NCBI RefSeq assembly: GCF_032399705.1
Contig: NZ_CP135922.1
Span: 4,216,001-4,280,000, forward strand
DNA length: 64,000 nt
Source of the DNA: Paenibacillus sp. BIC5C1
GTDB taxonomy: Bacteria; Bacillota; Bacilli; Paenibacillales; Paenibacillaceae
Direction of reading: 5' to 3'
Shown here piece by piece: positions 8,973 to 21,891 of this stretch. The notes below the pieces were generated by a model, which was given only the letters and a program-made list of their open reading frames with translations, made no database searches and had not been told where the DNA came from. Position numbers and translations under genes: made by a program. The number at the start of each line of letters is the position of its first letter. The first letter of the stretch is position 1.

Positions 8973-8997
8973 TAAGAAAGCAATCTATATATAGTGT
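8951..8997 (+). promoter_or_regulatory. Pair of NrdR boxes
   Basis: Two copies of the ACACTATATATAGTGT-type box: 8951-8966 (about 11 of 16 positions) and 8982-8997 (14 of 16). Their starts are exactly 31 bases apart, three helical turns, a spacing known for NrdR operators. They cover the -10 and start region of the nrd promoter. Confidence 0.8.
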
Positions 8998-9038
8998 TTG
9001 TTTTTGATCACCTTTCATTTGTCAAGGAGGAAATGATA

Positions 9039-9398
9039 GTGCTAATTGTGTATGATTCGATAACCGGGAATGTTAAGAGGTTTATTTCCAAGCTTCAACT
9101 GCCGGCTGTTCAGATTCAGAATCAAATGACGATTGATGAACCGTACGTACTTGTGACATATACAACAGGTTTTGGACAGATACCTGATAAGGTGTCTTCT
9201 TTTTTGCAAAAAAACTCTACATACCTGATTGGCGTGGCCGCCAGCGGTAACCGTAACTGGGGTGAGCGTTTTGCCAAAAGTGCGGATTTGATATCTGCAT
9301 CGTATAACGTCCCGGTTATTAGTAAATTTGAATTATCTGGCTCCAAGAGAGATGTGGAGTATTTTGAACAGGAGGTGAGCCGCATTGCGTCATATTGA
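9039..9398 (+). CDS. nrdI: NrdI, flavodoxin-like activator of class Ib ribonucleotide reductase
   Basis: About 119 residues with the small flavodoxin-like fold of NrdI: the FMN phosphate loop YDSITGNVKRF at the start, YTTGFGQIPD in the middle and GVAASGNRNWGERFA towards the end. NrdI supplies the oxidant that builds the Mn(III)2-tyrosyl radical of NrdF. AAGGAGG stands eight bases before the GTG at 9039 but only two before the ATG at 9033, so GTG is preferred. It is first in nrdI-nrdE-nrdF and its stop overlaps the nrdE start by 14 bases. Confidence 0.92.
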   Translation: MLIVYDSITGNVKRFISKLQLPAVQIQNQMTIDEPYVLVTYTTGFGQIPDKVSSFLQKNSTYLIGVAASGNRNWGERFAKSADLISASYNVPVISKFELSGSKRDVEYFEQEVSRIASY

Positions 9399-11469
9399 AT
9401 TAAATAACATGCTGCTAAAGCGCGACTCTGATGGCTTCTTCCAGTTACATAAGGATAAAGAGGCTGTAGAGGAGTTTATGAAAGAAATCAAAGATAAAAG
9501 TATGGCTTTTGCCAACATTGATGATCAGGTCCAATTCATGATTGATCATGATTATTACGAGGATTTCTATGCTTCCTATACAGCTGACCAAGTTAGAACC
9601 GTATTTGAAATTACGCGTGGCTATCAATATCACTTTCCTTCCTATATGGCAGCGTCCAAGTTCTATACTGATTATGCATTGAGAACATATGACCGCAAAA
9701 CATACCTTGAGCAATATGCGGATCGAGTAGCAGCCGTAGCACTTCATCTGGGTCAAGGACACTTCGATACGGCTTGTTTGCTGTCTCGTTCTATGATGGA
9801 ACAGCGTCTTCAACCCGCAACCCCTACTTTTCTAAATGCGGGAAAAAGCCGGCGCGGTGAACTGGTTTCCTGCTTCCTGCTTGAAATGGATGATTCACTG
9901 AACTCCATAAACTATGTACTAAACACTTGTATGCAGTTATCCAAAATCGGTGGTGGCGTTGCTGTCAACCTGTCAAAGTTGCGTGCTCGTGGCGAAGCCA
10001 TTAAAGGTGTTGAAGGTGCTGCTAAAGGCATCACTCCGGTTCTCAAGCTGATGGAAGACGGCTTCTCCTACGCCGATCAGATGGGTCAACGTAAAGGTTC
10101 CGGCGCTGCATACTATAATATTTTCGGTTGGGACGTTATGGAACTGCTGGATAGCAAAAAAATTAATGCGGATGAGAAAATCCGGCTGAAAACTCTCTCT
10201 ATCGGACTTATTGTTCCTAATCGTTTCTATAAGCTGGCTCAAGATAATGAGCCTCTGTACCTCTTCGCACCTTATAGTGTCTATAAGGCATATGGAACAC
10301 ATTTGGATGATATGGATCTGGACGTAATGTATGATACCTTGCTGGCTGACGACCGGGTGAAGAAGAAAAAATCGCTCAGCGCTCGGGATATGTTGACCAA
10401 AATAGCCATGACACAACTTGAATCCGGCTATCCCTATATCATTAATAAAACCAATGCCAATCAAGCGCATGCGTTGAAAAACGTAGGACAAGTCAAAATG
10501 TCCAACCTCTGCACAGAGATTTTCCAGCTCCAGGAGACTTCTGAAATTACAGACTATGGTCAACCGGATATTATCCGCAAAGATATCAGCTGCAACCTGG
10601 CCTCCCTCAATATTGTTAATGTCATGGAGAGTGGCAAAATCAAGGAATCCGTTCATGAGGGCATGATCGCACTGACCTCCGTCAGCGACATGACGCATGT
10701 TGCCAATGCTCCCGGTGTTGCAAAAGCCAATTCCGAAATGCATTCCGTTGGATTGGGTGCCATGAATCTGCACGGTTACTTAGCCAAAAACAGGATTGCT
10801 TATGAAAGCTCTGAAGCCAAGGATTTTGTACGTACCTTCTTTATGACCATGAATTATCATTCTCTGGAGAAAAGTATGGAGTTTGCAGAGCAGACGGGTC
10901 AACGGTTCTATGGATTTGAACAATCGGATTATGCGACTGGGGTATATTTTGATCGTTATGTGACTACGGATTACCGTCCTAACACGTCCAAAGTACAGGA
11001 ATTGTTTAAAGGCATTGCTGTTCCGTCTCCCGAGGATTGGAAGCAGCTTAAGGCTAAAGTGATGAAAAAGGGTCTCTATCATGCCTATCGGATGGCTATT
11101 GCTCCAACGGCCAGCATCTCTTATATCCAAAACGCAACATCCAGTGTAATGCCCATCGTGGAACAGATTGAGACACGGACCTATGCCAATTCAACCACGT
11201 ATTATCCAATGCCCTATTTGCAAAAAGATAACGTCTTCTATTACAAATCGGCGTATCAAATGGATCAATTCAAAGTAATTGACTTGATTGCGGAGATTCA
11301 GCCGCATGTGGATCAGGGGATTTCAACCATTCTTCATGTAAACAGTGATGTATCCACGCGAGAATTGGCTCGCTGCTACCTGTATGCTGCTCATAAAGGG
11401 TTGAAATCTCTGTATTATACAAGAACCAACAAACTGACGATGGAAGAATGCATTGCTTGTTCAATATAA
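9385..11469 (+). CDS. nrdE: Class Ib ribonucleotide reductase, catalytic subunit NrdE
   Basis: 694 residues, normal for NrdE. It reduces ribonucleoside diphosphates to the deoxy form. Visible features are the first active-site Cys (GELVSCFLLEMDDS), the loop SKIGGGVAVNLS, the NLCTEI active-site segment with radical Cys and Glu, and the C-terminal Cys pair ECIACSI used for re-reduction by NrdH or thioredoxin. The start is a TTG at 9385 inside the end of nrdI, with GGAGGTGA six bases upstream. There is no N-terminal ATP cone, as expected for class Ib. nrdH is not adjacent. Confidence 0.95.
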   Translation: MRHIELNNMLLKRDSDGFFQLHKDKEAVEEFMKEIKDKSMAFANIDDQVQFMIDHDYYEDFYASYTADQVRTVFEITRGYQYHFPSYMAASKFYTDYALRTYDRKTYLEQYADRVAAVALHLGQGHFDTACLLSRSMMEQRLQPATPTFLNAGKSRRGELVSCFLLEMDDSLNSINYVLNTCMQLSKIGGGVAVNLSKLRARGEAIKGVEGAAKGITPVLKLMEDGFSYADQMGQRKGSGAAYYNIFGWDVMELLDSKKINADEKIRLKTLSIGLIVPNRFYKLAQDNEPLYLFAPYSVYKAYGTHLDDMDLDVMYDTLLADDRVKKKKSLSARDMLTKIAMTQLESGYPYIINKTNANQAHALKNVGQVKMSNLCTEIFQLQETSEITDYGQPDIIRKDISCNLASLNIVNVMESGKIKESVHEGMIALTSVSDMTHVANAPGVAKANSEMHSVGLGAMNLHGYLAKNRIAYESSEAKDFVRTFFMTMNYHSLEKSMEFAEQTGQRFYGFEQSDYATGVYFDRYVTTDYRPNTSKVQELFKGIAVPSPEDWKQLKAKVMKKGLYHAYRMAIAPTASISYIQNATSSVMPIVEQIETRTYANSTTYYPMPYLQKDNVFYYKSAYQMDQFKVIDLIAEIQPHVDQGISTILHVNSDVSTRELARCYLYAAHKGLKSLYYTRTNKLTMEECIACSI

Positions 11470-11512
11470 ACAAAATTCCCTTTTGGGTATGACGATTGGA
11501 GTTTGATATACC

Positions 11513-12475
11513 ATGCCGGCAATTCAAGCTGTGAACTGGAATCGGGCGGATGATGATTTCACACTGATGTTCTGGAATCAGAATATTATGCAATTTTGGA
11601 CCGATGACGAGATTCCTTTATCCGATGATAAAATGACCTGGGGCATGCTCAGTGACATAGAAAAAGACGCTTATATGAAAGTTTTGGGAGGCCTGACCCT
11701 TCTGGATACGATCCAGGGCGGTGTAGGTATGCCGCAGATTATGGAGCATGTCGATGGACTGCAACGCAAGGCCGTACTTAGTTTTATGGCAATGATGGAA
11801 CAAATTCATGCGAAATCATACAGCAGTATTTTTACCACATTGGCATCAACCGAAGAAATCGACAGTGTATTTAAATGGGTGGAAGAAAACCCATATCTGC
11901 AAACCAAAGCGACGGTTATACGTCAGTATTACATGAACATTGAAACTTCAAAAGATCTGTATATGGCAATGGCTGCTTCCGTTCTTTTGGAAAGTTATTT
12001 GTTTTACAGCGGATTTTTCTATCCGCTCTATTTAGCCGGACAAGGCAAACTCACATGCAGTGGTGAGATCATAGATCTGATTCTGCGGGATGAAAGTATT
12101 CATGGTGTATATGTGGGCGTGTTGGCCCAGGAAATATACGCAAGCTTTGATGAAACCCAGCGGAACGATGTGTACCAAAGTCTAGTTGATCTAGTACAGC
12201 TTCTTCATCAAAATGAGTTGCAATATACGGAGGAATTATATACACCTATTCATTTGACCGAAGAAGTGGAAACCTTCCTTCGTTATAACGCTAATAAAGC
12301 GATGATGAACCTCGGGTTTGAGCCATTATTTGATGACGAGGAAGTTAATCCGATTGTGTTAAATGGCATCAGTACACATACCAAGCAGCATGACTTTTTC
12401 TCTAAAAAAGGCAATGGGTATATTCGGACTCTGAATGTAGAACCTCTGACGGATGATGATTTCAAGTTTAAATAA
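11513..12475 (+). CDS. nrdF: Class Ib ribonucleotide reductase, radical subunit NrdF
   Basis: 320 residues with the ferritin-like fold of NrdF. Metal ligands can be placed in LTLLDTIQ (Asp), MMEQIHAKSYS (Glu and His) and RDESIHGVYVG (Glu and His); the radical Tyr is the one in HAKSYSS. It carries the dimanganese or di-iron tyrosyl radical that starts catalysis in NrdE. The gene follows nrdE after 43 bases and closes the operon, ended by the hairpin at 12520-12564. The ribosome site (GGAG) is rather far from the ATG, so translation may be modest or coupled. Confidence 0.95.
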   Translation: MPAIQAVNWNRADDDFTLMFWNQNIMQFWTDDEIPLSDDKMTWGMLSDIEKDAYMKVLGGLTLLDTIQGGVGMPQIMEHVDGLQRKAVLSFMAMMEQIHAKSYSSIFTTLASTEEIDSVFKWVEENPYLQTKATVIRQYYMNIETSKDLYMAMAASVLLESYLFYSGFFYPLYLAGQGKLTCSGEIIDLILRDESIHGVYVGVLAQEIYASFDETQRNDVYQSLVDLVQLLHQNELQYTEELYTPIHLTEEVETFLRYNANKAMMNLGFEPLFDDEEVNPIVLNGISTHTKQHDFFSKKGNGYIRTLNVEPLTDDDFKFK

Positions 12476-12519
12476 GTCATAAAGAATCATAATAAGGCTA
12501 ACGTGTAGCCTATGAATAT

Positions 12520-12564
12520 AAATAAAGAAGGCTGTTCCTCCCAAAGGAATAGCCTTCTTTATTT
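12520..12564. terminator. Bidirectional terminator between nrdF and the biosynthetic operon
   Basis: A 14-bp A/T-flanked stem (12520-12533 with 12551-12564) continues into a second 5-bp stem (TTCCT with AGGAA). AAATAAA on one side and TTTATTT on the other serve both convergent operons. It reaches the stop codon of the minus-strand gene. Confidence 0.85.
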
Positions 12565-13606
12565 ACTTTTCGAGCAATGAAATCAGTCTTTGCAGCAGAA
12601 CGGGCTCTTCCTTGCGGAATTGCTCGAACCGGAGTTTTACCTTCGCAAACACGGCTTTGTCTTCACGAATTTCATGACGGATGTATTGATCCCTTAGCTT
12701 CATTGCCCTGGTGGTTATATCCTGATAACCATTCACCAGTTCTTCGTCGTAGGGAATCACTCCCTCATCTATCAAGTAGGCAATCCGTTCACTCATCATT
12801 TTTTTGTGCTCCCAGAGCACATGAAGATGCCTCACATCATTACGGTCACCAAGACGAGGATCGTTGCTCTCTACCGCATCATAGTACATTTGCAAATAGT
12901 CGTAGACGTCAATTCCGAAAGCCTGTTCGTCATCAGGAATGTAATTAATGCGATTCAGATGAGTCTCTCCGTTCAGATAATCATGCAGTTGGTCGAGTGC
13001 TACAATTTTATCAAAAGGATAAGGAGAATGCGGCTCATATTTGTAAAAATAAGTGTGATGATCCGCGGTAAGCCCTTCTCTCAGCAGATGTCTCATGGAT
13101 TGGACAGCATCCAGGAACTCCGTGAACGGAATCTGTACATTGCGGTACACTCCCGTGTGGTCGAACATGGAAGCATCAAAAACACGTCTCTCCCAATGGA
13201 AACCGTATAGAAAAAGATGATGAGGAAACGGTTCCTGCTGATAGGCCGCCGCTGGCGGTAGCTTGGCTTCGTCCAAAAACACGACACAATAATAGCCGCT
13301 GCGAATCTGATCCGCGAAAAATTGGGGCCAGGCGTCCAGCGCCAAATGCTCCAATATCGTATAATTCACAGAGCATGTGAGCAGAAATGGATTGTTGAAA
13401 TTCAGTTCGTTGGGTTTGCCCCGAAAAAAATCGATATAAAACTGTCTGCCATCCTCCAGAAAGGTTTTCTTGCAGGACAACTGAATGAAATTACTGTAAT
13501 ACCAAGGAATCGTTTCCTCATGTGCACTGGTAATCGAAAGCGTGTAAGCCCAGCGCAGAAATCCTTTAAGCGGCGGATTTAACACCGGCAGCTGTACGGC
13601 ATTCAT
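12563..13606 (-). CDS. Unknown protein, weakly like BtrH/C39-fold acyltransferases; last gene of biosynthetic operon
   Basis: 347 residues, soluble, with no signal peptide. I do not firmly recognise the family. Residues 100-166 read like the second half of a papain/C39-like or BtrH N-terminal domain: hydrophobic strand YYCVVFLDEAKLP, then His-His plus strand HHLFLYGF, then FDASMFDHTGVY and a segment reminiscent of the 'leeL..A' helix. Cys45 or Cys78 could be the nucleophile, but this is not secure. BtrH transfers the finished acyl side chain from a carrier protein in butirosin synthesis; the same role here is speculation based on the carrier protein and ATP-grasp genes in the operon. The C-terminal third is helical and charged. 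GGGGGAG precedes ATG. Confidence 0.6.
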   Translation of the reverse strand: MNAVQLPVLNPPLKGFLRWAYTLSITSAHEETIPWYYSNFIQLSCKKTFLEDGRQFYIDFFRGKPNELNFNNPFLLTCSVNYTILEHLALDAWPQFFADQIRSGYYCVVFLDEAKLPPAAAYQQEPFPHHLFLYGFHWERRVFDASMFDHTGVYRNVQIPFTEFLDAVQSMRHLLREGLTADHHTYFYKYEPHSPYPFDKIVALDQLHDYLNGETHLNRINYIPDDEQAFGIDVYDYLQMYYDAVESNDPRLGDRNDVRHLHVLWEHKKMMSERIAYLIDEGVIPYDEELVNGYQDITTRAMKLRDQYIRHEIREDKAVFAKVKLRFEQFRKEEPVLLQRLISLLEK

Positions 13607-13618
13607 TCTTTCTCCCCC

Positions 13619-14422
13619 TTAACTGCTTGCACTACTATATCCCTTCACAGCCTGTTTCCAGAGCAATCGTATAATTGTGAAGAGTATGAGCGAAGCGACC
13701 AGCGCCAGTCCTGTATAGAGCCAGCTGAGCTGTCCTAGCAGGAACATCGGTCCGAAATTGGTAATCAGGAACAGTGGAATGACAAAGGTACCGATCCGCC
13801 GGACCCAAGTTGGGTATATTGCCATTGGAAAATTGTTGGCGTCCCAGGCGGAATGGGCAATCTCCGATGCAGAGCCGGTCTGAACGAATCGAAATGACAG
13901 CAATGCAGGGATAATCATTAGACAGTATGTGATGATAACAGAGACGAATAACAGCAACACAAATCCAGCAAGCTGGAGAAACGTCAGAGGTATGTCCATA
14001 GCATGCCAGCCAATGCCAATCATGACGAAACCAACTAAAATATCAGGGATTGGCAGCGCCAGATCGACATAACGCAAGGAAGCCATAAATTGAAGTGAAA
14101 CCGGCTTCGTTAGCATTAGATCAAGTGACCCGTCCTTAATATATTCCGGAATTTTCGTAAAATTGGTGAAAAATAGCCCGACATACATTCCTGTCACCAC
14201 GGTGTGCATGCCTATAAATAGAAGCAACCCTTCTGGCGGTATGCCGTCGACGTGAAGATCGGTGCGGAACACAACGAGTACATATAACAGTTTGGCGAGC
14301 AGGTAGACGGATTCCACCAGCAGGCTCATCATGAAATTGCCCCGAAACTCCATCTGGGCAATGAGACAATTTTTGATGAACATACCATACAAATGTGCGT
14401 ATTTTCTCATGGTTCTAAACAT
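13619..14422 (-). CDS. ABC-2 family exporter permease (COG3694/COG4587 type), second
   Basis: 267 residues with about six membrane segments. The motif around KIPEYIKDGSLDLMLTKP (near residue 95) is typical of the ABC2_membrane_6 family, in which two unequal permeases pair with one ATPase. It stands 12 bases from both the other permease gene and the downstream gene. It should form a heterodimeric export channel for the product of this operon. The family has few characterised members; export of an antibiotic-like molecule is inference from context. Confidence 0.85.
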   Translation of the reverse strand: MFRTMRKYAHLYGMFIKNCLIAQMEFRGNFMMSLLVESVYLLAKLLYVLVVFRTDLHVDGIPPEGLLLFIGMHTVVTGMYVGLFFTNFTKIPEYIKDGSLDLMLTKPVSLQFMASLRYVDLALPIPDILVGFVMIGIGWHAMDIPLTFLQLAGFVLLLFVSVIITYCLMIIPALLSFRFVQTGSASEIAHSAWDANNFPMAIYPTWVRRIGTFVIPLFLITNFGPMFLLGQLSWLYTGLALVASLILFTIIRLLWKQAVKGYSSASS

Positions 14423-14434
14423 ATGGGATCTCCG

Positions 14435-15244
14435 CTACCCCCCAACCGCTGAATATTTCTTCATGGATATGCGCCACGTGAGACGAGATAGCCATAAAAA
14501 CAGAAGTATCCACCCGCACTGGATGAGCAATCCTTGATACATCGCCGCCACTTCCGTTTTGCCGCTAAGTACATTGACTGGAAAATAAATGGTATACGGA
14601 AACGGCGTGTACTGAAGTGCCTCCACTATCGAATCCCCAAAAATCTCCAACGGGAACATACCTCCGCTCAGAATATTCACAAGCAGACTCGTAATGACGA
14701 AAAAATAAGAGATTTCGTTCAGATAAAAAGCACTTGCACAGATGCAGTAGGAAATCAGGAAATTGAGCAAAAGCGCCCCGGACAGCGTGACGACGAATAA
14801 GATCATCCGTATGACCTGGAAGTCAAGCACACCACTGGCAGATGAGATCCAGATAATCCCGACGAGCAGCACAGCTGTAACGCCGTAATAGATCGCCTTC
14901 TGTCCGAAAAAGGATACTAGCCGATATCCGAAGTAACTAACCGGTTTGATCAAATACTTGTTGAGGCCGCCGTTCTTGATATCATCGACGATCTGGTGCT
15001 CGAACTGGGTGGCGATCAGTTTGGATACCAGGCCAGCCAAGATTGTATACAATATGATCTGATTATATGAATACGAGAATAGCGCCGTTTCGCCGGAATG
15101 TTGGTACACCGCTGTCCATATAAAATATTGAACAAGAATCGGAAACGCAGCTCCGAGAAGACCGAGAAAGAAGTGAAATCGGTATTCCATCGATTGCTGT
15201 ACACCCATCGAAAAAACAGCCGTATACAATTTGCGTCCATTCAT
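14435..15244 (-). CDS. ABC-2 family exporter permease, first
   Basis: 269 residues with about six membrane segments and the family signature QIVDDIKNGGLNKYLIKP (near residue 85), the counterpart of the KDGSLDLMLTKP motif in its partner. The ATG overlaps the ATPase stop (ATGA), so the two are translated together. The gene set ATPase-permease-permease matches the COG4586/COG4587/COG3694 transporter type. The substrate is unknown. Confidence 0.85.
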   Translation of the reverse strand: MNGRKLYTAVFSMGVQQSMEYRFHFFLGLLGAAFPILVQYFIWTAVYQHSGETALFSYSYNQIILYTILAGLVSKLIATQFEHQIVDDIKNGGLNKYLIKPVSYFGYRLVSFFGQKAIYYGVTAVLLVGIIWISSASGVLDFQVIRMILFVVTLSGALLLNFLISYCICASAFYLNEISYFFVITSLLVNILSGGMFPLEIFGDSIVEALQYTPFPYTIYFPVNVLSGKTEVAAMYQGLLIQCGWILLFLWLSRLTWRISMKKYSAVGG

Positions 15245-16224
15245 CCGACCGATTCCTTTTGGTAGAGCATGGAGATACTCTCTTCGATCGGTACGTCCTC
15301 AATCGTCCAGTCAACGATTGGAAACGAATCAAGCACAGCACGCGACACTTCTTTTAGACGGTGTTTGGGCAGCTCCAGAACAACACTGTATTCGTCTGCG
15401 CTGATCATTTTCCCAAATTTGGCCAGACGCTGCTCGGCAACCGGCTCCGAGAACTGCAACTTTACAATTTTATGCTCGCCAAACAGATCATTTATCTTAT
15501 GAAGATCTCCGTCATACAGAAGACTTCCTTCGTTAATGATGATTGTCCGCTTGCACAGGTCCTCCACGTCCTTCATGTAGTGGCTCGTCAGCAGAACCGT
15601 GGCACCAAACTGCTCATTATAATATTTCAGAAATTCCCGCACCCTCTTCTGCGAAGGGAAATCCAGGCCGATCGTTGGCTCGTCAAGATACAGCAGCTTT
15701 GGTCGGTGGATTAGAGCTGCGATTAGCTCCATTTTCATACGTTCGCCCAAGGACAGCCTGCGAACCTGTACATCCAGCAAGTCTTGCACATCAAGCATCT
15801 CTGATAGTTCGGCAAGACTTCGACGATAGAGATCATCCTCGACGTCATATATACATTTGTTCAAATAAATCGAATCGCTGGCAGGAAGGTCCCACCAAAG
15901 TTGATTTTTCTGACCCATTACAATGGAGAACAGCCGTTTGAACTCGTTCTTTCGCTCCCAAGGTACATAACCAAGGACGTCGGCTTCTCCACTTGTGGGA
16001 TATAGAATACCCGACAACATTTTGAGCGTCGTGGTTTTACCTGCTCCGTTCGGACCCAGAAATCCAACGCACTCCCCGGGGCCGATATCAAAGGAAACGG
16101 ATTTAACCGCTTCCTTCACAAGTGATTTGCGAGCAAACAAGTTTTTCAGTGAATGTTTGAGTCCTGCTTCTTTCCGGTAATATACAAACGATTTGTGCAG
16201 TTCTCGTACACGGATAAAGTCCAT
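15241..16224 (-). CDS. ABC transporter ATP-binding protein (COG4586 type)
   Basis: 327 residues. Walker A (LGPNGAGKTTTLKML, about residue 55), signature (LSLGERMKME), Walker B and D-loop (LLYLDEPTIGLD) and a switch His (LTSHYMKDVEDL) are intact. The extra N-terminal stretch before the ATPase core and the roughly 90-residue C-terminal extension fit the COG4586 subgroup that pairs with two ABC-2 permeases. AGGAGG precedes ATG by about seven bases. It follows the radical SAM gene within one transcription unit. Confidence 0.9.
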   Translation of the reverse strand: MDFIRVRELHKSFVYYRKEAGLKHSLKNLFARKSLVKEAVKSVSFDIGPGECVGFLGPNGAGKTTTLKMLSGILYPTSGEADVLGYVPWERKNEFKRLFSIVMGQKNQLWWDLPASDSIYLNKCIYDVEDDLYRRSLAELSEMLDVQDLLDVQVRRLSLGERMKMELIAALIHRPKLLYLDEPTIGLDFPSQKRVREFLKYYNEQFGATVLLTSHYMKDVEDLCKRTIIINEGSLLYDGDLHKINDLFGEHKIVKLQFSEPVAEQRLAKFGKMISADEYSVVLELPKHRLKEVSRAVLDSFPIVDWTIEDVPIEESISMLYQKESVG

Positions 16225-16282
16225 CCCCGCTCCTCCTGAATGATTGCATGTTTTCCCTTATTGGCGCTTAAAGTTAAAGCGA

Positions 16283-17458
16283 TTAAACTCCGTTGTTATA
16301 CAGAAGCACGCATTTCGAGCAAATCGGTGTCAAACCGCAGGCCAGAATCTCGCGTTGTTTTCGCAGATCCTCACCATGGAAAATATCGGCCACACTTTCT
16401 TCATATAAATTACCGACACTGAATTCCGGAAAAAATTTGCATGGATTGACCTTACCGTCTGGCATCACGTCCATCCGGTTCGAGATCGAGAAACACTTGG
16501 TCCGATTCATGGCCGGCTTTTCACTACCTCGAATAAAACCTTCTACTTCTTCGGGCTCCAACGCAGGCTGATAGCGGATACGTACATTCCACACTCGTGA
16601 ATTAACTCGTTTAAATTCCTCAATTAATGTATCGTAACGATCTGGTGAAATGTGAAAAGTGAACGAGTGCCAGCTGTTCTTGTGGTCGCTTGCAAAGCGG
16701 GAGGCAAGGTGCGGAAAGTGCGCATCAAAGTAGGTATCCATTTTTTCCGCCGTATCGGAAGGGATGTACCATGGGAAGCAGAAGTACACGGAATCAACGC
16801 CCAACTCTTCAAAGAATTCCATCAAGCTATACAGCTGATCAACCATCTGGTCATTTACGGTCAGAGCAACGGACACTTTACCTTTGTACAAGCCCTGCTT
16901 TTGAAGATCTAGCAGCAGCTGTATGGCATGAATTACTTTTTTGAATGTGCCTTTGCCCCGAATCGCGTCATTCTCCTTCTCGAATCCTTCCAGGCTAACC
17001 AGCATGACTAAATTCTTAGACATTTTCAAAATGGAATCCAGCTTTTGTTCAATGAGAATCGCGTTTGTACAAATGGTCGTATGCCGGTCTTCCTTGGCCA
17101 GCAGTTCTGCCAGTTCATCGAACTTGGAGTAAAATAGCGGTTCTCCGCCCCACAGGAACACACGTGATTTGCGTTCTCTCGTTTCGGCGAGCAGTTTCTC
17201 CACGACGGGAATCTCGATTTCGTCTCTCTTCACTTCACTGGCAAAGCCGTGATGAAAACCATCTGGATTCCATTCAAAACAATGCTTGCAGCGCAGGTTA
17301 CAGCCGTTATTAAGCTTGATTCCGATCTCATAAGGCACGGGCGCGGCATACGTCGGGTCCTCCCGGCGTTTCCTTCCCGTTTCTGCGAGCGGAACGAGGG
17401 TTCTTTTCATATTTTGGAATGTCAGCTTATCAAACGTAACTGCTGTTTTCGGCTGCAT
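16283..17458 (-). CDS. Radical SAM protein with SPASM/Twitch-like C-terminus
   Basis: 391 residues. The radical SAM cluster motif C-x3-C-x2-C is at Cys53, Cys57 and Cys60 (NNGCNLRCKHCFEW), followed by the glycine-rich SAM segment (VFLWGGEPLF). The C-terminal 70 residues carry five Cys (322, 340, 374, 380, 383) in a pattern close to SPASM/Twitch domains, which hold auxiliary Fe-S clusters; the full seven-Cys set is absent. Such enzymes act on peptides or, like BtrN, oxidise small molecules. The start at 17458 has GGAGG seven bases upstream and overlaps the glycosyltransferase end by 29 bases. Substrate unknown; no precursor peptide was seen. Confidence 0.88.
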   Translation of the reverse strand: MQPKTAVTFDKLTFQNMKRTLVPLAETGRKRREDPTYAAPVPYEIGIKLNNGCNLRCKHCFEWNPDGFHHGFASEVKRDEIEIPVVEKLLAETRERKSRVFLWGGEPLFYSKFDELAELLAKEDRHTTICTNAILIEQKLDSILKMSKNLVMLVSLEGFEKENDAIRGKGTFKKVIHAIQLLLDLQKQGLYKGKVSVALTVNDQMVDQLYSLMEFFEELGVDSVYFCFPWYIPSDTAEKMDTYFDAHFPHLASRFASDHKNSWHSFTFHISPDRYDTLIEEFKRVNSRVWNVRIRYQPALEPEEVEGFIRGSEKPAMNRTKCFSISNRMDVMPDGKVNPCKFFPEFSVGNLYEESVADIFHGEDLRKQREILACGLTPICSKCVLLYNNGV

Positions 17459-18536
17459 ACGTTTTCCTCCCCAATTGATTGATTTTTGATCGCTGCTCCA
17501 GCAAACGTCTGTACAGCTCTTCGAGATGTTGTTCCGAGTAGTGTAGAGCTTTCCATTCTGCGAACCGGATACCAAAACCACAGGACTGCCAATAGTTTGA
17601 ATTCTGAAGCTCATGGTCGCCGAAAGGCTCCAACATAACAAAAGGTATTCCGTAGGACAACGAATCGTTCAATGTTGCTCCTCCCGGCTTGCTGATAATG
17701 GCAGCGCAATTGCGCATCATATCCGTGTAATCAGAGTAATTACGCAGCGGAATTGCCCGAAGAATGCCTTCTTCACGCACATATCGGTTCATTGGTGGAA
17801 ACGAATGCCGCCCTTGGGCATCCCGACTCCACGGATTCCATGAAGCATCTGTACCGAAGTAGCGTGTGCTTCCATCGTCCTCCTCCACCTCTGAAGCATC
17901 GTAGACAATCACATTCAGCAAATAACCAAGTTGGCGAAGCTCACTAATCGTTGACGCGTACGTTCCTATCCCCCAGCCGCCGCCATGGATCAAAATGCGT
18001 CCGTCACGCTGTGCATAAGGCAGGAGCTCCTTTTCATCTGAGGCAATATAGCAATCTGGAGACAACCTTGAAGGCTCGTAAAGCCAGACATTATCGTAAT
18101 CCGGATACAAGGACTTGTGTACTTTAAACGATGGCGTATCGCACGCATCCAAACGGATCAGTTGAATATCCAGAGACGTGTGCGCAATGGATTTGTACCT
18201 CTCCAGGATCGGGAGCCAAAAACCGGTAAACACAGCAAACTGGGACACGCCATCACGTAACCAGGATTCCAACAGGAACTGAACTTCTGCTTCATTTAGG
18301 GAAGAATCTACAGGCTTGGCCAGCTTATGTCCCATAAGGGCAACGGAGAAATCGGCATGAAATGCTTTTTTGGTAGAATTAATCTTGGACCTGATTTCTT
18401 CATGATACAGATTCTCCAGCACGTGAATGCCTGTTTTAACACCTCTATCTTGCAGGTACGTATGCAGATGCATAGCCGGAATGTATGCACCAAGCGAATT
18501 GCCCGAAGCAAGCAGGGTAACCGAAGATGAATTCAT
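17430..18536 (-). CDS. GT-B fold glycosyltransferase-like protein
   Basis: 368 residues. The N-terminal half begins with SVTLLASGNSLGAYIPAM, like the acceptor domain of GT-B enzymes; the C-terminal half has the UDP-sugar-binding signature of MurG/UGT relatives (ISKPGGATLNDSLSYGIPFV, near residues 290-310, then EPFGDHELQN). A GGWGIG segment starts the second domain. GGAGG lies six bases before the ATG at 18536; the ATG at 18551 would contain that site. The sugar donor and acceptor are unknown. It is third in the operon after the carrier protein and ligase. Confidence 0.75.
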   Translation of the reverse strand: MNSSSVTLLASGNSLGAYIPAMHLHTYLQDRGVKTGIHVLENLYHEEIRSKINSTKKAFHADFSVALMGHKLAKPVDSSLNEAEVQFLLESWLRDGVSQFAVFTGFWLPILERYKSIAHTSLDIQLIRLDACDTPSFKVHKSLYPDYDNVWLYEPSRLSPDCYIASDEKELLPYAQRDGRILIHGGGWGIGTYASTISELRQLGYLLNVIVYDASEVEEDDGSTRYFGTDASWNPWSRDAQGRHSFPPMNRYVREEGILRAIPLRNYSDYTDMMRNCAAIISKPGGATLNDSLSYGIPFVMLEPFGDHELQNSNYWQSCGFGIRFAEWKALHYSEQHLEELYRRLLEQRSKINQLGRKTYAAENSSYV

Positions 18537-18558
18537 GCGCAGCCTCCGCATTACAGAT

Positions 18559-19956
18559 TTAGTTGTACACTTTAATGGACAAGTCGGCGAGTACCTGCCT
18601 CAGGCTTACGATCAGTTCACTGCGATGTTCTTCGTCACGGCCCACCACCGAGATATACAGTCGTCCCTTCGGCATTCCGCGATGACTCTGAATTCCCTCG
18701 GATTTTCGCCGAGAGGTCATAATACCATTCACCATTAAGGTGTTAGAGGAAATAGGTACAATTCCATACTTACCTTGCCCGCTGAATAGAAGACCAGATA
18801 CATGCAGAGTGTCCATTAGACTTTCAAATGTGAAGCCTTCAGGTAGACCGAGAGACAGAAAGGTAAGCAGGCCACTGTAGCCGTACATTTCCCATCCTTT
18901 GTCAAGGTAAGTATTAATAAGACCCATGGATTGGCGGGCGTTAATCTCTACAATGGGCACGATACCCCCGTCCTCCAGAATCATGGAATCGAAGCAAACG
19001 AAACCATGGTATCCATCTTCAAATAATATCCGAAGTGCCTTTTCCATTGTATCGAAATAACCCGCGTTCTCCAGCAGAAGAAGCAAAACTTCATCTGCTC
19101 TAATAGAACCGCCGTAATTCTGCTGCTGATTCAACATGCGCTGAACCGAAAGAAACTCCCTCTCACCGTTCGTATGAATGAACCAGTGTGAGCTGAAATC
19201 AAGTTCTTTTCTCAGTAGTGGTTCCAGTAGAAATTGCGAGCGCATCCCCCTTCTCTCCTGCTTTTCCAGGTGCTCTCCTATCCTTCGCTGCATGGCTTCA
19301 TTTTCAATGAGCAGGTTGCCCTTGCCGGAAACGCCAAATGGATCTTTTAGCAAATACGCCCCTCGCTTCAGCAACGTGTTTCCGACAGCCTGTACTTCTG
19401 CTACACTATTCACTTCCGTACCATAACACTGCTCTCCGATTTTGGTCAGGAGTCGGTTGGAGTAGAATTTGGAATTCACATGTTTAACCGTCTCAAGGTC
19501 CGGCAAAGAACCCAATGATCCAGCAACATGCATGTACCGCGCTGTATCAGCCGTAATGGCATATGGAGATAGATGTTTTACGTTGTGGGTCAATATTTCT
19601 TCACACTGTCGACTGTCTGAAGCAAGACTGAACATGCACTGCTTGAATACGTCCGGTTCCGGTAGGTAGCTCTTCTCATCGTTCAAATCAAAGTGGTAAC
19701 GGTTATGAAAAGAAAAACCTAACCCGTTCAGATACTCGTACAGTTTTGGATCGATTTTGCAGCGGGTGTAGTGGATATCGTCAGGCTCGCAAAATGGAAA
19801 TAACAGCTCGTCCATACATAGGACAATGGTTTCCCGGTCCTGATCAGGCATGGCGGGTAACTTGGCTAAGTTCGGATCTCTCCATCTCGTTTCGGGGTCA
19901 AACGTCCCCATAACGATCGCTGGAACCCCCCTGGCCTCACTTCTGGACATCTTCAT
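18559..19956 (-). CDS. ATP-grasp ligase (BtrJ-like)
   Basis: 465 residues. The ATP-grasp core occupies about residues 165-345: glycine-rich loop LLKDPFGVSGKG (202-213), adenine-binding strand FLLEPLL (242-248), and metal ligands Asp323, Glu337 and Asn339 (CFDSMIL, IVEINARQSMG). About 150 residues precede it and a 110-residue C-terminal part follows. Placement beside a carrier protein gene, with a 20-base overlap, resembles BtrJ, which loads glutamate onto carrier protein BtrI. I infer amino-acid loading here too. The start has only a weak ribosome site, which fits translational coupling to the carrier gene. Confidence 0.83.
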   Translation of the reverse strand: MKMSRSEARGVPAIVMGTFDPETRWRDPNLAKLPAMPDQDRETIVLCMDELLFPFCEPDDIHYTRCKIDPKLYEYLNGLGFSFHNRYHFDLNDEKSYLPEPDVFKQCMFSLASDSRQCEEILTHNVKHLSPYAITADTARYMHVAGSLGSLPDLETVKHVNSKFYSNRLLTKIGEQCYGTEVNSVAEVQAVGNTLLKRGAYLLKDPFGVSGKGNLLIENEAMQRRIGEHLEKQERRGMRSQFLLEPLLRKELDFSSHWFIHTNGEREFLSVQRMLNQQQNYGGSIRADEVLLLLLENAGYFDTMEKALRILFEDGYHGFVCFDSMILEDGGIVPIVEINARQSMGLINTYLDKGWEMYGYSGLLTFLSLGLPEGFTFESLMDTLHVSGLLFSGQGKYGIVPISSNTLMVNGIMTSRRKSEGIQSHRGMPKGRLYISVVGRDEEHRSELIVSLRQVLADLSIKVYN

Positions 19957-20212
19957 ACAATGATTGCTCTTGCGACTGGCAGCTTTTCAGAAAGGTCATA
20001 AATGTGTCGATCGACTGGAGATGTTCATAATCAAATTCGTCATAGTCAATGATTACGTTTAACTGATCCTCGACTTTGAGCATAAACTGAATCATTTGCA
20101 GGGAATCGAGACCAATATCGTTATTGAGTTCCGTTGCTGGGGACAGGGATTCGCGTAGTTCCGGTTGGTCTTCTTTGATAGTGCACAAAATGTCTACGAT
20201 TTTATCGTACAT
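19937..20212 (-). CDS. Acyl/peptidyl carrier protein
   Basis: 91 residues, typical for a free-standing carrier protein. The phosphopantetheine attachment motif GLDSLQM places the modified Ser at residue 37; the four-helix pattern and acidic surface fit. It is the first gene of the eight-gene operon and overlaps the ATP-grasp gene. It is not the fatty acid AcpP, which would lie beside fabF and rnc. GGAG stands eight bases before ATG. It should hold the building block during modification; by analogy with BtrI this may be an amino acid. Confidence 0.88.
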   Translation of the reverse strand: MYDKIVDILCTIKEDQPELRESLSPATELNNDIGLDSLQMIQFMLKVEDQLNVIIDYDEFDYEHLQSIDTFMTFLKSCQSQEQSLYEDVQK

Positions 20213-20282
20213 GACTACACTCCTTTAAAGTGATAATTATGTGAGGTACAACCGAAATTATTACGCTTACATATGCATTCAT
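20202..20282 (-). other. Possible 26-codon leader ORF
   Basis: A short frame from an ATG at 20282 overlaps the first codons of the carrier protein gene. It has only AGG as a ribosome site and contains hydrophobic residues with one Cys. It may be chance, a leader peptide, or nothing. Confidence 0.2.
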
Positions 20283-20334
20283 ATCAAACCTGGGTTCGGT
20301 TTATATTTCTCCTCTCTCTTCCAAAGTTACAATT

Positions 20335-20363
20335 ATTATCTTTATAATGACATTTTATGTCAA
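20335..20363 (-). promoter_or_regulatory. SigA-type promoter of the biosynthetic operon with overlapping operator
   Basis: On the minus strand TTGACA (20363-20358) and GATAAT (20340-20335) are 17 bases apart. A perfect inverted repeat TGACAT-TTT-ATGTCA at 20348-20362 overlaps the -35 hexamer and the spacer, so a repressor binding there would block polymerase. The leader from start of transcription to the carrier gene is about 115 bases. Confidence 0.75.
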
Positions 20364-20480
20364 GGGATAAAAACCTGTGATCTCACACTCACCAACAAGG
20401 TTTCCAGCTACTAAAAACCGCTATTTTAGTGGCCTCCCAGGTTCGGCCCTCCTCATTTTGTTTTGGACGATTTTCTCCCT

Positions 20481-20509
20481 TTGATAAGATCAAGACAAAT
20501 TGTTAAAAT
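20481..20509 (+). promoter_or_regulatory. Promoter of the APH-family gene
   Basis: TTGATA (20481-20486) and TAAAAT (20504-20509) with a 17-base spacer, ending about 50 bases before the start codon. Confidence 0.7.
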
Positions 20510-20560
20510 TTATGTACTAACGTTAGAACCCACCCATTTAATAGAAAATGAGGCGAGTAC

Positions 20561-21439
20561 ATGATTGAAATTACGATTGAATTGGTACGTCAATTAATTG
20601 ATAGTCAATTTCCGAAGTGGAAAGGCTTAACGATAACACCTGTAGAAAAAAGCGGGCATGATAACCGTACCTATCGATTAGGTGACGAAATGACGATTCG
20701 TTTACCAAGTCACGAACGTTACGCCTCTGCTGTAGAAAAAGAACTGAAGTGGCTTCCAGTTTTCAAACCTCAGCTGTCCTTGCCCATTCCAGCTCCCATT
20801 GCAAAAGGTGAACCTTCGGATGACTATCCCCTTCCCTGGTCAATCAACCAATGGATTGCAGGCGAGACTGTCACGCATATCAACGTACTCGACCTAAGCG
20901 TTTTTGCCGAAGAACTCGCTACATTTCTGAGAGAACTCGAAGCCATTGATGGTAGTCATGGCATACCCGCAGGCATTCAAAATTTTCATCGCGGCGGGGA
21001 CTTAGCGGTTTATGATACAGATACAAGGACCGTAATTGAAAAGGTATCTGGCCATTACGATACAAAACTCATGACTGAAATATGGGAGCTTGCTCTGGCA
21101 ACGAAATATCAAGCTGCACCGTTATGGCTGCATGGTGATGTTGCAGTAGGTAATCTGCTCGTGCAAGATGGACGATTATGCGGAGTTATTGATTTTGGAA
21201 CTATGGGCGTGGGCGATCCTTCCAGTGATCTTGTGATGGCCTGGAACTTTTTTGATGATGTAAGTCGTGAGATATTCCTAAGCTGCATGAATGTTGACCA
21301 AGACACGGTTGATCGTGCCCGTGGTTGGGCTTTGTGGAAAGCACTTATCTCCTACGATTGGAATGAACAAGGCTCGGAAGCCTCGAATTGGGGAAAGCAT
21401 GTCATAGATGTCATTATTCGTGACTATAAATCGCTCTAA
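20561..21439 (+). CDS. Aminoglycoside phosphotransferase (APH)-family kinase
   Basis: 292 residues with the APH/choline-kinase fold. The catalytic loop LHGDVAVGNLLV (Brenner motif, near residue 190) and the metal-binding GVIDFGTMGVGDPSSDL are intact, and the N-terminal lobe has the strand pair around KSGHDNRTYRLG. It is similar in layout to Bacillus YcbJ-type proteins, whose substrates are mostly unknown. It is divergent from the biosynthetic operon, so self-protection of the producer by phosphorylation is possible, but such genes are common in Paenibacillus and the link may be accidental. A plain hairpin ends it. Confidence 0.85.
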   Translation: MIEITIELVRQLIDSQFPKWKGLTITPVEKSGHDNRTYRLGDEMTIRLPSHERYASAVEKELKWLPVFKPQLSLPIPAPIAKGEPSDDYPLPWSINQWIAGETVTHINVLDLSVFAEELATFLRELEAIDGSHGIPAGIQNFHRGGDLAVYDTDTRTVIEKVSGHYDTKLMTEIWELALATKYQAAPLWLHGDVAVGNLLVQDGRLCGVIDFGTMGVGDPSSDLVMAWNFFDDVSREIFLSCMNVDQDTVDRARGWALWKALISYDWNEQGSEASNWGKHVIDVIIRDYKSL

Positions 21440-21454
21440 GTATATGAGCCTAAC

Positions 21455-21492
21455 AAATCCCTACGCGGGCGCACAGCCTCGCATAGGGATTT
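21455..21492 (+). terminator. Terminator of the APH-family gene
   Basis: A 13-bp stem with one mismatch (arms beginning AAATCCCTA and ending TAGGGATTT), 12-base loop, then ATTTTTGCTTTT. Confidence 0.85.
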
Positions 21493-21891
21493 ATTTTTGC
21501 TTTTCCGTAGATTTGTTTTGCATTTATTTCACCCATCCCATTTAACCTCTAAATCTCGCAATATTAATTACAAATCAGTGTTGACATTGAGCTTAGGATA
21601 AAGCAGTTCGTTATAACGAGCTGGTGTGATGATGTGGTGGAGATGCAGATATGAACTGGGGAGCGTAAATTGATCTTACTATTGTGAATTTTTCATATAC
21701 TGAAATAATAATATAATGCTCGAAGACAGGGTGCATTGAGTTGATGTTTGAAGTTTCACGATTAAATTCCCCCTTAATTCTTGGATGGAAATCTGGAGGA
21801 ACCACCCCCTCTCCATAGATATAACTAATACGCTTTTATCTTTTATTTTTGTGAATTTTTCATATAGTGAAAATATTAGGTTGTTGCGAAT
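21493..21891. repeat. Gene-free region with a 24-base direct repeat
   Basis: About 400 bases without a credible gene. Two copies of a 24-base sequence (21682-21705 and 21849-21872; one difference) start 167 bases apart. Each contains a palindrome TTTCA-TATA(C/G)-TGAAA. A separate 20-base palindrome with one mismatch is at 21604-21623. These could be operators or remains of a small repeat element. Confidence 0.6.

Follow-up and report, generated by a model that had tools for sequence, protein, structure and literature searches.

An ACP, ATP-grasp and glycosyltransferase operon in Paenibacillus proposed to make and export a glycosylated amino-acid conjugate

In butirosin biosynthesis the ATP-grasp ligase BtrJ loads the acyl carrier protein (ACP) BtrI, and BtrJ has been reported to carry out both ACP loading and amide ligation; the ATP-grasp enzymes PGM1 and BesA are amino-acid or peptide ligases. 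In the lincosamide pathways, according to the excerpted text of the source, CcbD couples a carrier-bound amino acid with an amino sugar, and CcbD and LmbD follow a ping-pong reaction through a Cys-His-Glu triad with His131 as the catalytic histidine (PMC12945683). Other non-ribosomal systems with ATP-grasp enzymes and BtrH-like proteins were predicted computationally earlier (PMC2922099), and neither "glycosyltransferase" nor "radical SAM" occurs in the excerpted text of that paper. Here we analyse a 64,000-nucleotide stretch of the soil bacterium Paenibacillus sp. BIC5C1 (positions 4216001-4280000 of a single 7.08-Mb contig; hereafter the window), in which eight genes encode an ACP, an ATP-grasp ligase, a GT-B glycosyltransferase (GT), a radical S-adenosylmethionine (SAM) enzyme, an ABC exporter ATPase, two ABC-2 permeases and a protein of the BtrH/CcbD fold. 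We propose, with a probability of about one in two, that this operon directs the biosynthesis and export of a small glycosylated amino-acid conjugate on the free-standing carrier protein, and the comparative data fit the first-pass annotation, made from the DNA letters, of an exported, amino-acid-derived and possibly glycosylated metabolite.

The gene content and its linkage are observed directly. In a profile scan of genome contigs, 148 of 195 pattern matches encode relatives, and the best 80 loci, all found via the ligase, were kept (L and G numbers label compared loci and genomes). Gene presence was counted in a redone search with bit cut-offs set by us, over stretches of at most about 10 kb on each side, nine of them shorter than 15 kb in total; scores from an iterated search were left unused as evidence, because BtrN- and BtrJ-like proteins may have entered its profiles. 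All eight genes are found in 40 of the 80 loci, so that the set, for which the first-pass annotation had proposed a search of other genomes, does recur there. The ACP, ATP-grasp and GT genes form a near-invariant core: the ACP is present in 79 loci (not found in L030) and the GT in 79 (L054 is a 3.2-kb contig), the GT adjoins the ligase in 79, and the ACP ends within 100 bases of the start of the ligase open reading frame (ORF) in 71. The radical SAM gene is present in 68 loci, the ABC ATPase in 65, each permease in 55 and the BtrH-like gene in 54. Of the 12 loci that do not have the radical SAM gene, two are short contigs (L054, L076) and the other ten belong to the Paenibacillus tyrfis/elgii/ehimensis group (L029, L030, L032-L037, L039 and L058); these ten keep the ligase, GT, ABC ATPase and BtrH-like genes, both permeases are absent, and in L032 the genes that follow encode a major-facilitator transporter and an arylamine N-acetyltransferase-like protein.

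The core together with the radical SAM gene also occurs outside Paenibacillus, in Clostridium (L073, L074) and Thermoflavimicrobium (L053) and on contigs of metagenome-assembled genomes named Margulisbacteria (L060), Chlorobiaceae (L062), Methylococcaceae (L082) and Bacillota (L075). When the GT was searched for without reference to the ligase, 50 matches were obtained in 44 of 75 Paenibacillus genomes; 48 of the matches adjoin a core-type ligase, and all 48 core-type ligase matches adjoin a GT. Two cases stand apart: G046 has no ligase match, and G009 has a broken GT fragment. Among 398 genomes sampled from the phylum, with up to five candidates scored in each, at least 4 have the GT, one of them the window's own genome. 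Because presence is patchy yet linkage is tight, the operon resembles a specialised pathway.

A [DGE]S[LMIV] motif is present in the ACPs of 78/78 high-scoring relatives, and the genome of the window has three matches to the phosphopantetheinyl transferase (PPTase) family. The ligase has the fold of PGM1/BtrJ-type ATP-grasp ligases with the D..E.N residues of the ATP/Mg site, and its structural neighbours are 3wvq, which we take to be PGM1, 8ynd, whose entry title names a peptide ligase, and BesA. At the thresholds used, no Pfam or NCBIfam model matched either the ligase or the BtrH-like protein. In a tree of 40 chosen ligases, a single branch (support 99) separates 34 GT-linked sequences from six of BtrJ type; this was a quick tree search with groups set beforehand by profile score, and BtrJ itself (L094) sits on a long branch, which makes its exact place unsure. 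The window ligase shares 100% identity with the one from P. taichungensis NC1 (L004). A BtrJ-type paralogue with 29% identity to the window ligase is encoded in the window's own genome in a separate cluster, L003:9446-18218 (G000:C1, about 559,000-568,000), read as KAS III-like proteins, a BtrJ-type ATP-grasp enzyme, a BtrK-like pyridoxal-phosphate decarboxylase, an ACP and an acyl-CoA dehydrogenase-like protein; this cluster looks like a carrier-bound amino-acid starter pathway, and one PPTase match, at 574825, lies near it.

In the radical SAM enzyme, C53/C57/C60 and C322/C340/C380/C383 are invariant across 18 alignment rows. The four invariant C-terminal cysteines are the count of a twitch domain versus the seven of a SPASM domain, as defined in the excerpted text of PMC6231123, and a seven-cysteine SPASM domain was not found in these rows; yet PF13186 scores 44 bits. 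Residues 315-385 of the family profile match BtrN (4m7t/4m7s). For the GT, family matches are weak (PF06722/PF04101; NCBIfam PRK13608 at 2.6e-07, far under its cut-off), profile A4 matches 9wde in the PDB at 1.3e-07, and an HGGGWG.GTY block is invariant across 19 alignment rows.

The BtrH likeness noted in the first-pass annotation is borne out as a superfamily relation, seen by profile-profile alignment (hhalign) and fold comparison only: the window protein goes undetected by PF14399 (BtrH_N), and the family profile misses butirosin BtrH in a plain search. The fold closely matches the small-molecule enzymes CcbD and CtaG, the latter with mutants at C11, H128 and D144 according to structure entry titles; another fold neighbour is AziU2-U3 of azinomycin biosynthesis, by its entry titles a two-protein complex. 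In the 54 family members, including that of the window, the aligned cysteine column holds Gly (36), Thr (12), Ser (4) or Val (2). The first cysteine of the window protein is residue 45; two members (L069, L070; alignment A2) have a cysteine two residues beyond the column, and three remoter relatives (L040:19374, L092:2963, L095:8789) have one in it. His129, Tyr235, Lys268 and Arg274 are kept in 54/54, and at the aligned Asp position (147) 37 members have Met and 13 have Asp. On this alignment the protein is constrained, but the known acyl-cysteine route is ruled out at the aligned site, because the cysteine is absent there from all 54 members. Elsewhere, L092 (G001:C29:178000-197999, P. chitinolyticus) encodes two BtrH/CcbD-like proteins, two ACPs, an adenylation (A) domain-nitroreductase fusion and an aminotransferase, and beside the core operon at L047:19327-20838 a weak BtrH_N match (21.4 bits, under the cut-off) is fused to an F5/8 type C domain.

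The sister operons carry variable additions, a single Pfam-tested representative giving each family its name; each count is a lower bound, since the first ORF picking lost some genes under overlapping spurious ORFs. Of the 80 loci, at least 17 have a GFO/IDH/MocA oxidoreductase, 17 a methyltransferase, 14 an epimerase, 12 a Zn-dehydrogenase, 12 a GH3 protein, 12 an FkbM methyltransferase, 11 an AMP-binding enzyme, nine a second ACP, seven a nucleotidyltransferase, six a UDP-glucose dehydrogenase, six a BtrH_N protein, five a PIG-L protein, four a BtrK-like protein and three a KAS III; two radical SAM genes occur in at least 21. Nucleoside-diphosphate-sugar enzymes, a stand-alone A domain and a second ACP are among the additions, which suit chemistry on amino sugars and amino acids. 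The GH3 protein of L017 matches beta-N-acetylglucosaminidases (6k5j, 7.2e-134), and GH3 directly precedes the BtrH-like gene in all 12 GH3 loci, with permease 2 upstream in 11 (the permeases were not found in L027) and a Zn-dehydrogenase in 11. The PIG-L proteins of five loci share 27-31% identity with the BtrD-like protein of L094. The GH3 and PIG-L genes point to an amino sugar, probably N-acetylglucosamine (GlcNAc) in some members, and UDP-glucose dehydrogenase points to a different sugar in others. A second ligase, of BtrJ type, lies within 10 kb of 18 of the 50 GT matches, one of them beside the broken GT fragment of G009; a broken core-ligase piece in G027 was not counted. Alongside the core operon, L077, L078, L079 and L083 have a BtrK-like decarboxylase, a BtrJ-type ligase and a second ACP, and L077, L079 and L083 also a BtrH_N-cluster protein (Pfam-tested in L077 only), which gives L077 a BtrK/J/I/H-like set beside the core. 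These sets suggest a glycoside further acylated with a unit like gamma-aminobutyric acid.

By analogy with BtrJ, CcbD and BtrN, a pathway can be proposed, in which substrates, order of steps, product and its role are all conjectural. The ACP would receive phosphopantetheine from one of the PPTases of the genome, and the ATP-grasp ligase would activate an amino (or hydroxy) acid and load it onto the ACP, as BtrJ does on BtrI. The GT-B enzyme may then glycosylate either the bound unit or the acceptor, possibly with GlcNAc, and the twitch radical SAM enzyme may catalyse an oxidation, an epimerisation or a related step, comparable to the dehydrogenation by BtrN. The CcbD/BtrH-fold protein would help to join the ACP-bound acyl group to an amine, perhaps by direct aminolysis with His129 as the base instead of through an acyl-enzyme, and the ABC exporter would secrete the product. 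The candidate release enzymes vary between loci (Cys-less CcbD-like, BtrH_N, KAS III), which would follow if the loci have a glycosylated acyl-ACP intermediate in common but differ in the acceptor. The fullest version of this scheme, which we consider less likely than not, would be a new class of natural-product assembly: an aminoacyl-ACP made by a dedicated ATP-grasp clade is glycosylated while tethered, a BtrN-like radical SAM enzyme modifies it, and a Cys-free CcbD/BtrH relative frees it as an amide, so that Paenibacillus and members of several phyla would secrete molecules resembling aminoglycosides or lincosamides.

Several observations weigh against the proposed conjugate pathway. The nearest solved ATP-grasp structures, where named, are peptide or amino-acid ligases, and the case for thioester formation therefore comes from BtrJ and the ACP linkage alone. 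The BtrN match is confined to the C-terminal twitch domain of the radical SAM profile, a search with the BtrN sequence alone misses the window protein, and the best PDB matches of the profile, in the core domain, are CteB (5wgg, 7.5e-17) and SkfB (6efn, 1.1e-14), enzymes of ribosomally synthesised and post-translationally modified peptides (RiPPs). Function is also hard to predict within this subfamily, according to the excerpted text of PMC6231123. The ten P. tyrfis/elgii/ehimensis-group loci hold ligase and GT, nine with ACP, and have no radical SAM gene nearby; 26 of the 80 loci have no BtrH-like protein above the cut-off, and with its cysteine missing that protein is only a putative release enzyme. 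GlcNAc is suggested by sister operons, the window operon itself having neither GH3 nor PIG-L, and at least six of the 80 carry UDP-glucose dehydrogenase instead.

Four other readings were weighed. The structural neighbours 3wvq, 8ynd and BesA, and the double activity reported for BtrJ, would suit a PGM1/BesA-like ligase forming an amide between two free amino acids or between an amino acid and an amino sugar, the ACP being loaded with another acyl group by another enzyme; given the proximity and near-constant presence of the ACP beside the ligase (71 and 79 of 80 loci) and the lack of an A domain (PF00501) in the window, we regard this as unlikely. Nearly as credible, and still improbable, is a BtrH-like protein that is a degenerate scaffold or binding partner, with release by another enzyme or by water. 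The absence of the cysteine from 54/54 members, the Asp column that has mostly become Met (37/54) and the two-protein AziU2-U3 complex speak for such a role, but the four invariant residues are more than a decayed protein would show.

Modification of the cell envelope is somewhat more doubtful. Here an aminoacylated glycolipid or surface glycan would be made in a Dlt-like manner (carrier-bound D-Ala) with a UgtP-like GT and moved by the ABC-2 exporter, as the best GT profile matches, PRK13608 and 9wde, are diglucosyl-diacylglycerol synthases and the ACP has weak DltC-model scores (0.00055 and 0.0012). Against it, the eight genes include no DltB/MBOAT-like acyltransferase, presence is patchy across the genus (44/75 genomes), the tailoring-gene cassettes vary in a way typical of secondary metabolism, and the fold of the last protein closely resembles those of the small-molecule enzymes CcbD and CtaG. 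A RiPP pathway, with the radical SAM enzyme modifying a ribosomal peptide and the BtrH/C39-like protein acting as protease, seems very improbable to us. A radical SAM enzyme, an ABC exporter and a papain-like-fold protein do stand together in the operon, the radical SAM profile matches the RiPP enzymes CteB and SkfB best, and because twitch RiPP enzymes such as SkfB exist, a missing seven-cysteine SPASM domain does not by itself exclude it. One 26-codon leader ORF running into the ACP start also has short matches (17-18 aa) in a few more distant relatives, L007, L008, L012 and L017 being the loci matched. Against a RiPP pathway, none of the 11 small ORFs of 15 aa or more between the operon and its neighbours on either side is a convincing precursor, their conservation mostly tracks DNA similarity in the closest relatives, the protease site has no cysteine, and the near-invariant core is ACP, ligase and GT.

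The eight ORFs lie where the first-pass annotation had placed them (Table 1), with the short overlaps and gaps that it described: from the ACP to the BtrH-like gene the distances are -20, +7, -29, +58, -4, +12 and +12 bases. Its gene identities likewise fit the family, fold and comparative data. Clear ribosome sites precede the ACP, radical SAM, ABC ATPase and BtrH-like genes; the exact starts of ligase and GT are uncertain because neither has one. The radical SAM enzyme most likely starts at the ATG at 17458, and the 452-codon ORF is therefore too long. The candidate sigma-A promoter upstream of the ACP is weak, because it is the best of 16 sites in the region versus 14.0 (sd 3.7) expected in shuffles. 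Terminator-like sites number 14 versus 7.9 (sd 2.7) in shuffles, and an Rfam scan of 12000-21500 gave nothing at gathering scores. Downstream, convergent genes at 8994-12475 are provisionally read as NrdI/NrdE/NrdF. Upstream and divergent, an APH-family phosphotransferase gene (PF01636, 20561-21439) is probably outside the operon; it was rejected as a self-resistance gene, since of the loci compared only L004, L006 and L007 have a member of its cluster besides the window.

Table 1. Features of the operon, positions within the window
Feature	Position	Strand	Remarks
Free-standing acyl/peptidyl carrier protein (ACP), 91 aa	19937..20212	-	phosphopantetheine site GLDSL; PF00550 3.5e-07
ATP-grasp ligase, 465 aa	18559..19956	-	superfamily of 3wvq, 8ynd, BesA, BtrJ; exact start uncertain
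GT-B glycosyltransferase (GT), MurG/UGT kind, 373 aa	17430..18551	-	exact start uncertain
Radical SAM enzyme with twitch-type auxiliary-cluster domain, 391 aa	16283..17458	-	ORF reaches 17641; PF04055, PF13186
ABC exporter ATPase, 327 aa	15241..16224	-	PF00005 1.6e-23
ABC-2 permease 1, 269 aa	14435..15244	-	PF06182 1.1e-20
ABC-2 permease 2, 267 aa	13619..14422	-	PF06182 1.5e-37
BtrH/CcbD-fold protein without catalytic Cys, 347 aa	12563..13606	-	proposed release or condensation enzyme
Candidate sigma-A promoter TTGACA-17-GATAAT	20335..20363	-	about 120 bases upstream of ACP start; 11/12 consensus matches

Gene-cluster detection rules key largely on hallmarks of non-ribosomal peptide synthetases (NRPS), polyketide synthases (PKS), terpenes or RiPPs. 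In line with the first-pass annotation, which noted no NRPS or PKS in the operon, none is found in the window: the matches of the genome to PF00668, PF00501 and PF00109 (2, 8 and 2) all lie outside it, and an NRPS/PKS remnant is rejected, there being no condensation, adenylation or ketosynthase domain match. Lacking these domains, and with a ligase and a proposed release protein that go unrecognised by Pfam and NCBIfam models at the thresholds used, the core is easily overlooked, even though its GT occurs in more than half of the sampled genomes of one genus. The system offers a test of sugar addition to carrier-bound amino acids, and poses the question of how a CcbD-fold protein works without its cysteine.

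No description of this gene set was found in the full-text literature searched, which mostly excludes subscription papers, and to that extent "undescribed" stands; the logic is, however, less isolated than had been claimed, as ATP-grasp, ACP and BtrH-type protein follow butirosin side-chain logic, the twitch domain of the radical SAM enzyme resembles that of BtrN and the last protein folds like CcbD. The genome of L017, P. chitinolyticus NBRC 15660, holds a butirosin-like cluster (L094, L096, L097), which we take to be that of butirosin. Profiles of the window families built without this cluster match its BtrJ (3.4e-23) and BtrI (4.5e-08) and not BtrH; BtrN and the whole of BtrM were outside the butirosin set of that check. 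In searches with single butirosin proteins, BtrJ matches 79 or 80 of the 80 loci (the tally may include the window copy), BtrN 27, BtrI 17, BtrE 13, BtrD 5, BtrK 4, BtrO 4 and BtrS 3 (L054 at 131 bits, L035 and L032 at about 37; none in the window), and BtrC, BtrB, BtrG, BtrH, BtrP, BtrQ and a short-chain dehydrogenase/reductase match none. Within the window only BtrJ matches (42.5 bits); the BtrI sequence misses the ACP, and BtrK, BtrG, BtrC and BtrB are absent. The butirosin cluster proper is rejected, since the aminocyclitol genes (BtrC, BtrB) are missing from all 80 loci and from the window.

The locus thus resembles butirosin in its free-standing ACP next to a homologous ATP-grasp enzyme, its BtrH-superfamily protein and its radical SAM enzyme with a matching twitch domain, and some sister operons add BtrD- and BtrE-like enzymes. 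It differs in its separate ligase clade, the twitch-only match to BtrN, the Cys-less BtrH-like protein, the MurG/UGT-like GT as opposed to the GT4-like BtrM (read from a partial ORF), the lack of BtrP and BtrQ matches in the window as well as in the 80 loci, and the rarity of BtrK-like genes. From the PGM1, BesA and 8ynd systems it is set apart by the linkage of ACP to window-type ligases in 79 of 80 loci, and from closthioamide CtaG by the absence of the cysteine among the probed C11, H128 and D144. With lincosamide synthetase it shares the fold of the condensing enzyme CcbD, in a system (CcbD/LmbD) that also has a carrier protein and a GT-B enzyme, LmbT; loading, however, would presumably be by ATP-grasp rather than by the stand-alone A domain CcbC/LmbC, the histidine of the Cys-His-Glu triad is kept (His129) and its cysteine is not, and the radical SAM enzyme is an addition. 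The operon links two antibiotic logics, with butirosin and lincosamide biosynthesis each supplying a part and the specific combination of genes apparently new.

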